Source: an uncultured Pseudomonadales bacterium
Lineage (GTDB): Bacteria; Pseudomonadota; Gammaproteobacteria; Pseudomonadales; Azotimanducaceae
DNA: 64,000 nucleotides
Reading direction: 5' to 3'
NCBI GenBank assembly: GCA_958296025.1
Contig: OY282430.1
Location: forward strand, 682,001-746,000
Shown: positions 38,364 to 46,244 of the stretch, one piece after another
Numbering within the stretch: the first letter of the stretch is position 1
Layout: every line of letters starts with the position of its first letter
The notes under the pieces: model-generated
The model's database searches: none
What the model was told of the DNA's origin: nothing
The model's input: only the letters and a program-made list of their open reading frames with translations
Position numbers and translations under genes: made by a program

Positions 38364-38834
38364 GTGATCGCTTTTGCGCCGGATGGCGCCGTGCCCCGGG
38401 TCGGCCTGCTCGCCACCGTCCGCAACCGCCACGGCGTGGTGGCCGCGGTGCAGCCTTTCGACGGCGACAGCGGCCGCCTGCACCTCGTCCTCGTTGAATA
38501 TAAGGACGCCCGCCAGCCCGCCGACGAACGTCTGCTGTGGGAACTCGAAACCGGCGCCCGGCTGATCGAACCCACCGCGCTGCCGGACCCGATGCGCGAC
38601 GCCATGCCGCCGGCCGACTTCGACGCACTGCTGCGCGCCGCCCGCTGGAGCGCCCTCGTTCCCTATCTCAACCCCGACGACGAAGGCCCATTGAACCGCG
38701 AACCCCTGGCCAGCCCGTTCCACGGCGCCGTACGGGTGGAGAACTACCAACTCCTACCCCTGCTGAAGGCGCTCCGCATGCCGCGCGTCAGCCTGCTCAT
38801 CGCCGATGACGTGGGCCTTGGCAAGACGTTAGAC
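38364..38834 (+). pseudogene. SNF2-type helicase, N-terminal remnant (DISARM DrmD-like)
   Basis: The frame from a GTG at 38364 encodes about 155 residues that lead into SPFHGAVRVENYQLLPLL, then RVSLLIADDVGLGKT, the start of motif I of a SNF2/DEAD helicase. This N-terminal pattern resembles helicases of the DrmD type in DISARM and related defence loci. Immediately after GLGKT the sequence no longer matches the family, so the other ~800 residues are missing. It is a truncated remnant. Confidence 0.65.
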
Positions 38835-38889
38835 GATGCACAGCGCTTTTCGCCGTATCCTCTGCGTCAATTCTTGTTGGACGAGGCGA

Positions 38890-39003
38890 TTCCTTTACCC
38901 CGACCGTCTAGATGTGTATAGTCCCGGCGAGCTTCCCAACACACTGACCCTCGCCGACATGCCCTACCGCACCTTCACCCGCAGCCAACTGTTGGTGAGC
39001 TTC
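38890..39003 (+). pseudogene. Fragment of an AlbA_2/HATPase_c_4-type regulator
   Basis: A stretch of ~38 codons reads DRLDVYSPGELPNTLTLADM followed by YRTFTRSQLLVSF. This is the conserved RLEVYSPGGLP...RN-LL segment of putative AlbA/HATPase_c_4 transcriptional regulators. Nothing before or after it matches. With the helicase remnant just upstream it shows that this region has collected pieces of broken accessory genes. Confidence 0.6.
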
Positions 39004-39194
39004 CCCTTTTGGGCGGGTAGCAAGTGCATCGAGGCAAGTATTCCTTGAGTCGCGTGACGAGGGTGTGCGGAGGATCTTGCAGCATGGGGAGGCACACTCA
39101 TGCATGTGCGCCGGAGTATCGGCTGTTTAGTGAGGAGTTGCGGGTGACTATCTCGTGTGCTCCGATTGGCGAATCTTAGGTACGGTACAAGCAA

Positions 39195-40022
39195 GTGTTC
39201 AACCTGATTGTTCGATTCGACGGCACGAGTAGCGCTTGGGAACAGGACACGAAGTCCTCTCTCGAACGTAAACGTATCTTCGAATATACCGAAAGTGAGG
39301 TTAGATCAAAATTTAGCAACCTAGAGGCATTGAAGGAACTACCATGTTTCTTTTCCTACGAAGGTCTCTTCGGTGATGGCCGAGCTGGGAACATTACGTC
39401 CATCAGTTCTTCTGGCGGGCTTATAACGTTTAGATATGTGCTAAATCCCCAAATTCCTCCAATACCAATACACGATAAAGATACCTACGCGTTATTTGGA
39501 TGCCGTGCCGGGGAACTTAATAGAACGCATTGGGCCGTAAAGGACATGGATCTCTACGAGGTCATTGCTGGAATTCTCGCTCGTAAAATCATCGTCCAGC
39601 AGCGGGTAAATGGCGTAGATCTGGAACGCATATGGGGAGATCCCAGAGCGGATCGTCGTGTGTTCCTCAGTCACAAGGCGGATCGCCGTAAGGAAGTATC
39701 TAGCATGGCTGAGGCTCTAAAGCGTTTCGGATTTAAGACGTTTGTTGCTCACGATGACATATCACCGACGCACGAGTGGCGTGACGAGATTCTATTGGCA
39801 CTTCGCAGCATGACGCATTTCGTTGGGCTCATTACGGACGATTTCCACAGCGGTAGTTGGACTGATCAGGAAATCGGCTATGCGTTCTCTAGGAGTGAAG
39901 TCCGAAGGATTTTTGTGCGGCTCTCAGACGTGGACCCGTGCGGGCTTGCAGGTTTCGAGCAGGCTGTGAGCTCGAATTGGGAGCAAGCCGCTGAATGCAT
40001 TCGCGAGATAATTGCAACCTGA
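39195..40022 (+). CDS. TIR-domain protein with a novel N-terminal domain
   Basis: A 275-aa protein starting at a GTG at 39195. Residues ~155-275 form a TIR domain: strand A VFLSHKADRR, FGFKTFVAHDDISPTHEW, and SMTHFVGLITDDFHSGSWTDQEIGYAF. The Glu in DQE sits where the NADase catalytic Glu is found in bacterial TIR proteins. The first ~150 residues (LIVRFDGTSSAW..., YEGLFGDGRAGN) match nothing I recognise. The AAA ATPase follows after 19 bp, so the two are probably cotranscribed. Codon use is more AT-rich than the neighbours. A defence NADase is inference from TIR architecture and context. Confidence 0.8.
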   Translation: MFNLIVRFDGTSSAWEQDTKSSLERKRIFEYTESEVRSKFSNLEALKELPCFFSYEGLFGDGRAGNITSISSSGGLITFRYVLNPQIPPIPIHDKDTYALFGCRAGELNRTHWAVKDMDLYEVIAGILARKIIVQQRVNGVDLERIWGDPRADRRVFLSHKADRRKEVSSMAEALKRFGFKTFVAHDDISPTHEWRDEILLALRSMTHFVGLITDDFHSGSWTDQEIGYAFSRSEVRRIFVRLSDVDPCGLAGFEQAVSSNWEQAAECIREIIAT

Positions 40023-40041
40023 CAGTTGGTATGGTTCAACC

Positions 40042-41223
40042 ATGAACGGTTCCGAACGACATGTCGAACTCGGCACCTCCCGAGACGCACCACCTCACTT
40101 CGCCGGTCGGGTCGCGGAACTGGCGTCTTTGAACAGGCGGATAGACGCCGTGTGCGCGAGCGCGAACCCGGAAGCGGGCATGTCCCTGATCACTGGCGTA
40201 CAGGGCGTTGGCAAGACGCATTTGGGCCTGAAGTTCGCCCGCGAAGCGACGAAGCGCGAAGGCCCGCGCCGCATTCTGTGGAAGAGCATGCTGCCAGACA
40301 CGCTGGCGGCGGATGACGCCATCGTCTTCATGGCGATCATGCGGGCGTTGGGCAGCGAATCCAGTGGGCGGAAGGTGGCCGATCTCGAAGCAAGGACTAC
40401 CGCGGTAGGCGGAGGAATCGGTCCCATCGAGGGCAATGTGACCGTGGATCGCGTTCGTAAGGCGCACGACCTCGGCGAACTGCTGAGCGACTCCGTGGCG
40501 GCTGGCGCTTGGGAGGGCAAGGCGCTCGTCATTACTATCGACGAGCTGCAAACCGTGGCGCCGGCTGGAATGAAAACGCTGCGCGTGTTGCATCAAGGTG
40601 TGCAGAACTGCCCGATGATGGTGCTTGGCATCGGTTTACAGCACACGCCGGAGGTGCTGTCCAACCCTGGTGGTGGGGCGGCCGGCATCTCACGGGTAGC
40701 CGAAGAGTTCAATCTCGGCCCGCTGTCGCATTCAGAGACGCTGGAGGCCATCGACCAGGGCATGTTGGCGCTGGGCCATGACATTCCGCAGCCCGGTGTG
40801 CAAGCTCTGGCCGAGGCGTCTATGGGATTCCCGCAGCACATCCATGGATACCTTGCAGGCGCTTGCGAAGCCATTTCGCGTCATGGAAGCCTCATGGATG
40901 GCCCGCCGTTGTCGGCAGCACTTGCCGTAGGCGACAAGGCGAGAGTCGCTTACTACGAAGGGCGCCTTCGTCTCATGTCCAACAGCAGGGCCATGTTGGC
41001 TGTGATCGGTGCCATGAACCAACGCCGCGAGCACTTCCTGGACATAGACGCCGCAACCCAGGCATTGGACGAGGCGTCGTTCGACGGTGCCGCCGTGGTC
41101 CGAGAAGCCATCGAGCACGGTGTACTTGCCAGAAACGCTCGTTCGGAATTGTCCTTCGGCATCCCGTCGTTCCACAACTACATGCAAGACTGGCTGGACG
41201 GCCAACATCCGCGGATAACCTGA
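40042..41223 (+). CDS. AAA-family (ORC/STAND-like) ATPase downstream of the TIR gene
   Basis: A 393-aa ATPase. The HFAGRVAEL lead-in is followed by Walker A GVQGVGKT near residue 52, Walker B LVITIDELQ near residue 163, and sensor-1-like VLGIGLQHTPEV. The lid segment GFPQHIHGYLAGAC is followed by a C-terminal winged-helix-like region (ARNARSELSFGIPSFHNYM). The ATG at 40042 lies 19 bp after the TIR stop; an upstream TTG is unlikely. It resembles the ATPases at 14399 and 41634. It may serve as sensor or switch for the TIR effector; this is inference. Confidence 0.78.
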   Translation: MNGSERHVELGTSRDAPPHFAGRVAELASLNRRIDAVCASANPEAGMSLITGVQGVGKTHLGLKFAREATKREGPRRILWKSMLPDTLAADDAIVFMAIMRALGSESSGRKVADLEARTTAVGGGIGPIEGNVTVDRVRKAHDLGELLSDSVAAGAWEGKALVITIDELQTVAPAGMKTLRVLHQGVQNCPMMVLGIGLQHTPEVLSNPGGGAAGISRVAEEFNLGPLSHSETLEAIDQGMLALGHDIPQPGVQALAEASMGFPQHIHGYLAGACEAISRHGSLMDGPPLSAALAVGDKARVAYYEGRLRLMSNSRAMLAVIGAMNQRREHFLDIDAATQALDEASFDGAAVVREAIEHGVLARNARSELSFGIPSFHNYMQDWLDGQHPRIT

Positions 41224-41459
41224 GAGGGTGGGCGTGGATCGGCCCGCGCCGACGGACGGCTAAGAAGATCGGATGTCGGCTTCTGGCGTGTGTCAGGGTC
41301 GGGACAACATGGCAGACATCCAAGCCTGCGTTCAAGATGTGCGCAAAGTGCTGCGGGACAAAGTGCAGATGGGGCGGCTACCGCGCTTCGGCCAGATTTG
41401 GCCGAACCGCCGCATGGTATAGCGCCCATCGCTCCTTCTACCCTCGGGCCAATCGAAAA
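41224..41459. other. Spacer with a possible 37-codon ORF
   Basis: An ATG at 41309 opens a 37-codon frame to 41422 (MADIQACVQDVRKVLRDKVQ). It is basic and helical and could be a small real gene or a remnant. Nothing else is seen. Confidence 0.25.
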
Positions 41460-41600
41460 ATGGGTCTCAACATCAAGAACGAGGCGACGTGCCGCTTGGC
41501 CAGCGAACTCGCACGGCTCACCGGCGAAACCAAGACGGGTGCCATCATCCAGGCACTGCGCGAACGCCTGGCACGCGAGTCGTCGGTGCCTAGGCTGTGA
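41460..41600 (+). CDS. VapB-type antitoxin, short or truncated
   Basis: A 46-aa product starting at an ATG at 41460. LNIKNEATCRLASELARLTG followed by ETKTGAIIQALRERLARE matches the ribbon-helix-helix N-terminus of VapB antitoxins of the Rv0623/PF07704 type, which run to about 80 residues. The toxin-binding C-terminus is missing and no PIN toxin follows, so it is a solitary or decayed antitoxin. It lies between two AAA ATPases. Confidence 0.65.
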   Translation: MGLNIKNEATCRLASELARLTGETKTGAIIQALRERLARESSVPRL

Positions 41601-41633
41601 TATCCTGCCGGCAGCGATTGGTTGGTGCGTCAC

Positions 41634-42662
41634 ATGCCAAAAGCACCGCAGGTCCAAGATGCCTTCGACCGGATGACGGACTACGCCGCCAAGCGGGAGC
41701 GCTCCGCTCCGCTGGTTTTCGTTGGGCGAAGGTTCGAGTTGAACGAGCTTACGTCCGACGTCCAACAAGCGGCAACTGACAACCCCCAAGGCATGCTCCG
41801 CGTCGTCCAAGGTGTCCCCGGCGCAGGGAAGAGCGCCCTGTGCGGGGCGTTCATGGCGTCAGTGCATGGAAAGATGTTCGGCGGGCACCGGGTGCTATGC
41901 GCCCAAATGCCCCTCGGCACCCTGAACTCATCTCCCTTGAGCTTCGTCTCGGCTTTGAACGATGAACTGCTGCGGACGCAGGCTGCCCTATCGGGGATGA
42001 CCGGCGCGATTGGCGCAGGGCGGCTGCACACCAAGCAGATGGCCAACATGGCCATGATGCTCGGCTTCAAGGGGCGGTCGGAGTACAAGCTCAACAACGA
42101 GGCGCATGGATTGACGGAAAGCTCGCCCTTGAACGTCTGCATCAACGCCTACGCGGACCACATGTGGCCGGACGACGCCGTGGTCGCGCTGACCTTTGAC
42201 GAAATGCAAAAGTGCCCTGTCACGAACAGAAGCCAAGAGGCCCTCATGGTTCTGCACGAGCGGTGGCACAGCGCCCGCATCGCTGTCGCGTGCTTCGGAC
42301 TAAGCAACACCGAGGCGGTGCTCCGAGAGGACCTCGGCCTGTCCAGGCTCTCCGTTGGCTCCGTTATGGAGATCGGGACGCTGCTCCCGGGCGAGGGCCG
42401 GAAAGTGCTGGAAGGAACGCTCGACCATCTTGGCATGACGACGAAGAACAAGGAATGGCGCCAATACGTCAAGGCGGCCGGCTTCGAACCCGGGGCTTGG
42501 GAGGCTTGGCGCAGGACGCTAATCAGCGACTTGGACCGGCGCTCCGGTGACTTCCCCCAGCACCTGACCGCCGCGCTGATCTCCGTCGGCCATATCCTAA
42601 GCGGTTGGGCCGAATCCGCACGGTCTCAGGACACCGAAGTCCTGAGAGAAATCGGCAACTGA
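41634..42662 (+). CDS. Second AAA-family (ORC/STAND-like) ATPase
   Basis: A 342-aa ATPase. VFVGRRFEL leads to Walker A GVPGAGKS near residue 60, Walker B VALTFDEMQ near residue 187, and sensor-1-like CFGLSNTEAVL. FPQHLTAALISVGHI corresponds to the lid segment of its relatives. It lacks the longer C-terminal domain of the 40042 protein. The ATG at 41634 was chosen; GTG and TTG lie 9 and 12 bases upstream and no ribosome site favours any. The function is unknown. Confidence 0.7.
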   Translation: MPKAPQVQDAFDRMTDYAAKRERSAPLVFVGRRFELNELTSDVQQAATDNPQGMLRVVQGVPGAGKSALCGAFMASVHGKMFGGHRVLCAQMPLGTLNSSPLSFVSALNDELLRTQAALSGMTGAIGAGRLHTKQMANMAMMLGFKGRSEYKLNNEAHGLTESSPLNVCINAYADHMWPDDAVVALTFDEMQKCPVTNRSQEALMVLHERWHSARIAVACFGLSNTEAVLREDLGLSRLSVGSVMEIGTLLPGEGRKVLEGTLDHLGMTTKNKEWRQYVKAAGFEPGAWEAWRRTLISDLDRRSGDFPQHLTAALISVGHILSGWAESARSQDTEVLREIGN

Positions 42663-44711: not shown

Positions 44712-46244
44712 TTAGTCCCTTTCCGGCATCCGCAGCCATCGCCCTTCCTGTTCGGCGCTCTCGGATTCCAAAAATGCGTTGCAGGCCGCCAACTCCCGTG
44801 CTGTGCCCTCTACGGAACGCCATTCCACTGCGGCCGTCCAGCGTTGTGCGTAGTCCAGTGTTCGGATCAACGGCGTTGCAACGCCGTTGTGGGTCAAGGC
44901 CCGCTGCGCCGCGACGTAGTTGCCGTGATAGACCGTGGGAATAAGGATGCGCTCCTCGTCGCCGCCGGCAAGTTCCGCGTTCATCATGATGCGGGCGATG
45001 CGGCCGTTGCCGTCCGCGAATGGATGCACCTCCGCGATTAGGAAGTGCATGAACACCGCTCTTTGGAAAGGCGTCTCCAAGCTCCGGCCTAAGGCAAAGC
45101 CGCGCTCCAGGGTGCCGGGAACGTCGTCGGGCAGAACGAACAGCGTCGCGCCGGCTTGGTTGGGAACGCGCTTGAATTCGCCGGGCCGCACCTCGGGGCG
45201 ATTGGCCAGCACGGCGGCGTGGCGTTGCCGCAGCAGATCTAGCAGCGCGGCGGCGTCCCTTGGCGTTCGGCGCATTTCGGCATTGTTGGAGACGATGCGC
45301 CACACGCCCATGATGTCGTGGGCGTCGGCGGGGCGCTCGGCGGGTATGCGGCCTTGGAATACGATGTCGGCGGCTTCGTCAACGGCGAATTCGGTGCCTT
45401 CGATGAAGTTGGAGAAGTAGGCGTCGTAGAACGCCAGCGTCGCCGCTGCTTCGGGTGCCCGTTGTCGGGCCGGCCGAAACGATGGCGGCATGTCGCGCAG
45501 CGCTCCGTGGAGGATCTGAAACAGTCGGAGCCTCTCTGCGTCATAGGGTCGGCCGCGGTGTCGCGCTTGGGCTCTTGGCGACGTCAAGAGCGCCGCATGG
45601 CCTGCATGGGCGCCAAGGACATTGCCGACCAACGCGTCAAGGCGCTCCGCTTCCGCCGTCCTGTCGATCATCGGGGCCAAGGCCCGTGCCTCGTCCCGCA
45701 GCCGGTTGGCGGCGTCAACGCCCGCCAACCGGATCAGATTGTCCAGCCGGTCCTCCAGTTCGGGCCGGGGAAGGGTGCGCGGCAGCCGACCGCCGCGGGC
45801 GCGGGAGGGGCGCAGATTGTCGAGCCATGCCCTTGCCGTGGAGCTCAGAAACAGGGTGTTCAGGAACGGGCGGTCCGAGTCCTGAGGGCCTTTGCCCCGC
45901 CGCGGCCGTAGCGTAACGCCAGGCACAGTCAGTGTGCTGCCGCTTTCGGTGACTAGGCAGACCGAGCCATCCGCTGCGGGCGCGTTCTCCAAAGCCGTGC
46001 GGTCGGCGACCAGAGCGCCGGGGAAGTAGCCGGCGACTATGTCCCAAAGATTGCGGCGGACGATGGCTTCCGGCGCATCGACCAGATTGGAGGTGTACAA
46101 CCGCGACCCCAACTTGCGCAATTGGCCGGCCTTGAGCCGCCGCGACACCTCGCGGCTAAGCGAGGAGCTGGACACAAACGCTTCCGGCATGGCGTCCAGC
46201 AGTTGGGCGGCGCTTGGGGAATTATTCGGTGATAAGGCTTCCAC
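44712..46244 (-). CDS. Fic-domain protein with AbiEi-like N-terminal domain
   Basis: A 510-aa protein. The C-terminal half is a Fic domain with the complete active-site motif HPFADGNGRIAR near residue 406, which usually transfers AMP to a Tyr, Ser or Thr of a target protein. An inhibitory helix motif SNFIEG (S-x3-E-G) near residue 280 places it in class II, with the inhibitor inside the same chain. The first ~120 residues (SLSREVSRRLKAGQLRKLGS, then LVADRTALENAPAAD) resemble an AbiEi-type winged-helix antitoxin. Combining the two in one chain would let it repress itself; this is inference. Confidence 0.85.
   Translation of the reverse strand: MEALSPNNSPSAAQLLDAMPEAFVSSSSLSREVSRRLKAGQLRKLGSRLYTSNLVDAPEAIVRRNLWDIVAGYFPGALVADRTALENAPAADGSVCLVTESGSTLTVPGVTLRPRRGKGPQDSDRPFLNTLFLSSTARAWLDNLRPSRARGGRLPRTLPRPELEDRLDNLIRLAGVDAANRLRDEARALAPMIDRTAEAERLDALVGNVLGAHAGHAALLTSPRAQARHRGRPYDAERLRLFQILHGALRDMPPSFRPARQRAPEAAATLAFYDAYFSNFIEGTEFAVDEAADIVFQGRIPAERPADAHDIMGVWRIVSNNAEMRRTPRDAAALLDLLRQRHAAVLANRPEVRPGEFKRVPNQAGATLFVLPDDVPGTLERGFALGRSLETPFQRAVFMHFLIAEVHPFADGNGRIARIMMNAELAGGDEERILIPTVYHGNYVAAQRALTHNGVATPLIRTLDYAQRWTAAVEWRSVEGTARELAACNAFLESESAEQEGRWLRMPERD

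Follow-up and report, generated by a model that had tools for sequence, protein, structure and literature searches.

A 64,000-nucleotide stretch of DNA from an uncultured Pseudomonadales bacterium (contig OY282430.1), here called the window, contains a gene for a TIR protein at position 39195, followed by an AAA ATPase gene, a VapB-like open reading frame (ORF), and a second ATPase gene. An earlier note, made from the sequence alone, proposed that these genes are a candidate undescribed defense module in which the TIR protein is paired with an ATPase. The locus raises the question of whether the TIR protein works with the ATPases or by itself. We think it somewhat probable that the product of the gene at 39195 is a self-contained defense protein, built from a sensor or switch module, a flexible linker, and a TIR NADase, and that the ATPases are unrelated to it.

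A conserved N-terminal module precedes the TIR domain

As read from its sequence, the core of the locus is a single gene (39195-40022, plus strand) that joins an N-terminal domain of about 125 residues to a TIR domain. It starts with GTG and encodes 275 amino acids (aa) with no internal stops. We delimited the N-terminal module as residues 1 to 135 (39195..39599, plus strand), the part common to 126 collected proteins with differing C termini. The earlier note had been unable to place this domain, and we found that residues 1 to 150 of the window protein had no match in Pfam, PADLOC, or NCBIfam at E values up to 1. The relatives that we scanned against Pfam had no match in the module region above the Pfam cutoff. 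PHROG 4962 does span the module (E = 0.022 in the window protein and 9.1e-12 in locus L006; seven of the eight proteins given matched), but this cluster of phage proteins, 467 positions long, has no known function and is not a named domain. In the full-text literature, we recognized no description of the module among the matches listed, which were mostly judged by title.

Several module residues are strongly conserved. Among the 126 rows, columns that the search motif did not require include R27 (120 rows), E30 (125), and E56 (126), and G65 was kept in 124. R110, H112, W113, A114, and K116 were present in all 126 rows, most of them having been required by the search and extraction motif. The charged conservation would fit a bound ligand or an active site.

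In the structure model of the TIR protein (mean predicted local distance difference test score [pLDDT] of 80.4 and predicted template modeling score [pTM] of 0.62), the module is confidently predicted as a mixed alpha/beta domain. Its pLDDT block means are 86 to 98 over residues 1 to 130, with strands at 2-7, 20-24, 50-55, 61-73, 76-83, and 112-116 and helices between them. A weak linker follows (pLDDT below 50 at 142-144), and confidence in the TIR domain is uneven (50 to 90). A PDB sequence search with the module gave a single match at E = 1.1 and so found no relative, while a search with a longer alignment gave 42 chains at E values up to 1, whose listed ranges lie in or near the TIR half. 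Structural alignment of the full model (VIA-align) gave rows spanning residues 150 to 275, again the TIR half, and several were other flavodoxin-like folds with similar Z scores. When the module was compared with EVE/PUA-like modified-base readers, the hhalign probability was 1%; TIR-type pairs (CAP12-type TIR against TIR) scored equally low, so this comparison was powerless.

The TIR domain (residues 151 to 275, 39645..40019, plus strand) matched Pfam TIR_2 at residues 156 to 260 (E = 3.7e-12; 47.2 bits against a curated cutoff of 28). Its predicted catalytic residue, E226 (39870-39872) in the WxxxE region, shares its alignment column with the BtTir and AbTir Glu residues, which we take to be catalytic. 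This agrees with the NADase type named in the earlier note and suggests that the window TIR probably destroys cell NAD. The same TIR type occurs with other N termini in L002/L173, by eye an apparent type I restriction locus.

Single-protein TIR defense is already a known kind, of which the window gene would be a variant. In passages of PMC12847820, SpbK of Bacillus subtilis is described as a single protein that senses through its N-terminal domain and is proven to be a TIR NADase. Like the window protein, SpbK carries an N-terminal domain, a linker, and a C-terminal TIR domain with an NADase-type Glu in one protein of similar size. Unlike the window module, which is predicted to be mixed alpha/beta and gave no sequence relative in the PDB search, the SpbK N-terminal domain is described in the same passages as a four-helix bundle. 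The window TIR also weakly matched the Thoeris models ThsB (E = 5e-5 at best) and ThcB4 (39.5 bits), but ThcB4 has a cutoff of 220 bits and only the TIR domain is covered. We found no Thoeris model among the other window proteins scanned with PADLOC and NCBIfam (five proteins in all, one of them misframed).

The module occurs in ten phyla and in viral contigs

A whole-protein search of 274 genomes of the same class gave 13 genomes with a match. Seven matched through the TIR domain, five matched through the N-terminal domain, and one was the window itself. In those five, the N-terminal domain is joined to other C-terminal domains or to another TIR type. Searches with the whole TIR protein gave no match in phage records or in a first viral scan. 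We then used an alignment of eight N-terminal domains to scan one genome per species (84,980 species) and IMG/VR. The species scan returned 207 pattern matches, 187 of them module relatives, and the IMG/VR scan returned 56, of which 33 were relatives. A motif around HWA served as the seed for both the genome set and the viral set, and 80 of the 187 genome relatives were kept; five of the ten loci L131 to L140 do not fit the motif used and lie outside the 126 proteins. These 126 include duplicates and hold 117 distinct module sequences.

Counted from the origins of the tree sequences, the module is present in ten phyla (Pseudomonadota, Bacillota, Myxococcota, Calditrichota, Thermodesulfobacteriota, Chlorobiota, Chloroflexota, Verrucomicrobiota, Cyanobacteriota, and Actinomycetota), several of which are represented by single metagenome bins. 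Among sampled genomes, 12 of 398 in the phylum and 6 of 194 in the order had a match, two of the 12 phylum matches being partial and weak (E = 1.1e-7 and 1.3e-5).

The module precedes many effectors

We grouped the C-terminal regions of the 126 proteins into BLAST clusters and named each cluster after scanning a few of its members, not all 126, for known families. By this measure, 46 were NDT/TIR-like, 43 were FRG, 11 were SFPGE-type TIR, 9 were CAP12-type TIR, and 2 were SEFIR. The remainder comprised one each of the window TIR, another TIR (L069), Abi_C, and McrB-like AAA_5, together with 11 that were short, cut, or standalone. The CAP12-type TIR in L047 matched PF10137 (E = 4.4e-36), and the Abi_C effector matched PF14355 (E = 5.5e-22). 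The McrB-like effector matched AAA_5 (E = 6.3e-17) and the McrB model at E = 2.3e-9, with 36.5 bits against a cutoff of 637. In L213, which belongs to the window's order and lies outside the 126, the module is fused to AAA_13 (E = 6.3e-16).

The effectors behind the module match known or candidate defense families, which favors a defense protein: PADLOC labels those scanned PDC-S15 (FRG), PDC-S35 (CAP12-type TIR), bSEFIR, and AbiJ (Abi_C). The effector domains of PDC-S15, PDC-S35, and bSEFIR thus follow the same module in relatives of the window protein, but these models match the effector half only, and none of them matched the window protein. Passages of PMC9503650 place Frg in the ADP-ribosyltransferase (ART) superfamily as a possible NADase and name TIR and DrHyd among NAD+-processing enzymes. 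We infer that the NDT-like class belongs to DrHyd. Most likely, the module switches suicide effectors, mostly of NAD-consuming superfamilies.

In a quick tree of the 117 distinct modules, built from few columns and with 49 of 114 inner branches open, at least 11 changes of effector label are needed; the least possible number is 8, and the mean after shuffling was 51.8. The clearest swap is a group of six TIRs within an otherwise FRG clade (SH-aLRT, 97). Module-effector pairings, as estimated from this tree, are mostly stable with some swaps.

Some of these loci have features of their own. Of 5426 complete E. coli genomes, 46 carry the module-SEFIR gene of L015 and its relatives at ≥99% identity (23 of these have 80% or more of the gene), and all 57 of its places there are on plasmids. 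In L106 (L106:8001-8911), the module and a CAP12-type TIR are two abutting ORFs, either a split gene or a frameshift. In L039 (L039:8001-11440), the module stands before the McrB-like AAA_5 ATPase, which is followed at once by a 413-aa protein in McrC's place; this protein had no Pfam or PADLOC match.

Seven standalone modules lie in viral contigs (L113, L121, and L124 to L128). ORFs of one BLAST cluster lie near six of these seven and near six module-FRG loci (five Pseudomonas genomes and a viral contig), where the cluster ORF is directly upstream of module-FRG. Two scanned members of the cluster, from L113 and L033, were AAA_13 proteins, and that of L113 is PDC-S06 in PADLOC. The viral contigs L113, L121, and L124 to L127 share an arrangement in which a protein of ~300 aa with an RLCGGxFF motif, the standalone module, often an HTH_17 protein of 66 to 74 aa, and AAA_13 (PDC-S06) occur together. 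The ~300-aa protein had no Pfam match in the two members scanned. This recurring cluster may be a defense system of its own.

A proposed switch and its trigger

According to passages of PMC12847820, the SpbK N-terminal domain binds the phage portal and so clusters the TIR domains. By analogy with SpbK, we propose that the module would keep the TIR domain inactive until a phage-derived trigger is met. Binding of the trigger by the module would bring TIR domains together, and the clustered TIRs would cleave NAD+, so that the infected cell would stop growing.

From its McrB-like and AAA_13 partners, a nucleic acid or nucleotide cue for the module is plausible. We hold only tentatively, and as a doubtful extension, that the module is an undescribed infection sensor of at least ten phyla, which serves eight or more types of effector as an interchangeable switch and reads a nucleic acid or nucleotide made in infection and not a phage protein. 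The predicted effector types are NDT-like, FRG, several TIR types, SEFIR, Abi_C, AAA_13, and McrB-like AAA. We suggest such reading because the module precedes the McrB-like ATPase where specificity domains sit and because it has conserved Arg, Glu, His, Trp, and Lys residues.

Several points weigh against a self-contained defense protein. The assignment of the largest class, NDT-like, depends on a weak match to Pfam NDT (E = 0.06 to 0.09) and on matches to a TIR effector model in PADLOC (E = 1.8e-9 and 4.9e-12). The combination in the window, the module with this type of TIR, was found once, on a long unresolved branch. The island around the TIR gene is decayed, and activity, trigger, and defense are all predicted, the fold of the module included. 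Finally, crude ORF picking shows that 37 of the 80 genome loci have an ORF on the same strand no more than 60 bases away, on one side or both, so the module may have hidden partners.

The module could instead be an adaptor of the effector-associated domain (EAD) type. In that case, it would sense nothing by itself and would bring its effector to a sensor elsewhere by pairing with a second copy of the module. The module is small and stands before varied effectors, as EADs do according to passages of PMC7159879, and standalone modules adjoin AAA_13 proteins. The same passages state that EADs are present in two or more copies, of which one is on a core component. In contrast, the 16 distinct genomes with a match in the phylum and order samples had exactly one module match each, although very divergent copies could escape this search. 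No second copy on a core component was found in these 16 genomes, and as noted earlier, the window module has no Pfam match. We therefore rejected EAD membership and regard an EAD-type adaptor as unlikely.

The TIR gene lies in a worn defense island

Upstream of the TIR gene, we found an N-terminal remnant of DrmD from DISARM (38364..38921, plus strand; PADLOC E = 1.4e-30 over profile positions 11 to 153 of 1040; NCBIfam DrmD E = 1e-29) and a tentative HATPase_c_4 or RecG-like fragment (38836..39048, plus strand; Pfam E = 1e-4, 22.7 bits, below the curated cutoff of 26). The earlier note had seen broken accessory genes in the flanks, and on this upstream side we could follow it. An intact DISARM was rejected, with only about 150 of about 1000 DrmD positions present. 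The VapB-like ORF, which begins at an ATG at 41460 (41460..41600, plus strand; 46 aa), did match PF07704 PSK_trans_fac (E = 4.2e-16). The match spans only positions 1 to 41 of 82, so what the earlier note took for a VapB-like protein is the remnant half of a VapB-type antitoxin. ATPase 2 starts 33 bases further on, so there is no VapC directly downstream.

With DrmD, the RecG-like piece, VapB, and ATPase 2 all truncated, the TIR gene might itself be a silent relic of a decayed island. However, the TIR ORF is uninterrupted, all 17 of the conserved module residues that we checked are present after its start, and the TIR Glu is kept. We consider a relic quite unlikely.

The TIR gene has a GC content of 49.5% (50% at third codon positions [GC3]), compared with 62.4 and 62.7% (GC3, 72 and 80%) for ATPases 1 and 2 and 63.4% (GC3, 86%) for the cytochrome P450 flank. 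This contrast suggests that the TIR gene arrived separately. The P450 gene (36837-38189) adjoins the island, and genomes of the same family have up to nine P450 matches each. In an empty-site comparison, the P450 and epimerase matches fell on different contigs in six same-family genomes. On the minus strand at 44712-46244, an ORF carries a Fic-type motif (HPFADGNGRIARI), judged by eye.

The ATPases are not conserved partners of the module

ATPase 1 (40042..41223, plus strand) and ATPase 2 (41634..42662, plus strand) both matched Pfam AAA_16 (E = 3.4e-12 and 9.7e-10), and both are probably outside the system. The AAA_16 family includes signaling NTPases, and a possible ATPase 1 start, the ATG at 40042, lies 19 bases past the TIR stop on the same strand. 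The order of the four genes given in the earlier note is borne out by ORFs and Pfam matches, and the TIR gene and ATPase 1 may still be cotranscribed in this genome.

If the TIR-ATPase pair were conserved, it should recur beside other modules. We surveyed the neighbors of 113 module loci, taking up to five ORFs per side by simple ORF picking with no gene caller (fewer at contig ends), and none of the 950 ORFs resembled either ATPase at E values up to 0.01. Among these neighbors, a TIR of the window type appeared in two cases, L090 and L047. In L090, this TIR is encoded by a gene of its own, which starts immediately downstream of the module-NDT stop codon; behind it comes an ATPase of a different family, AAA_15. 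The relatives of ATPase 1 in L142 to L145, L151, and its own-genome copy L165 had no TIR within the 3 to 10 kb examined, and neither ATPase had a relative in a plasmid collection. ATPase 2 has four paralogues in its own genome that are 35 to 40% identical to it and each more than 100 residues longer at the C terminus. With these (L161 to L164; G000:C1:972548, 1763490, 2520930, and 3355451), the window copy, which is the shortest, makes five scattered AAA_16 paralogues.

A single defense operon, with the ATPase as phage sensor and the TIR as cell killer, is favored by the shared strand, the short gap, and the L090 arrangement, but it is the least probable explanation given the survey, the ATPase 1 relatives with no TIR, the differing base composition, and the truncated ATPase 2. 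The ATPases, the half VapB, and the DrmD and RecG-like pieces look like unrelated neighbors or remnants. From the earlier proposal, we retain a candidate undescribed defense gene, with an N-terminal domain found in no curated library tried and remnants of defense genes beside it; the conserved TIR-ATPase pair, and with it the TIR and ATPases as one module, did not hold up.

Suicide enzymes such as TIR and FRG count as established or suggested defense effectors. How many of the single-gene cases are activated is a problem on which one small domain, standing before many such effectors, offers a handle: if one trigger is found, the rule of activation becomes testable for PDC-S15, PDC-S35, and plasmid bSEFIR. 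The module profile can also be used to search for further effectors.

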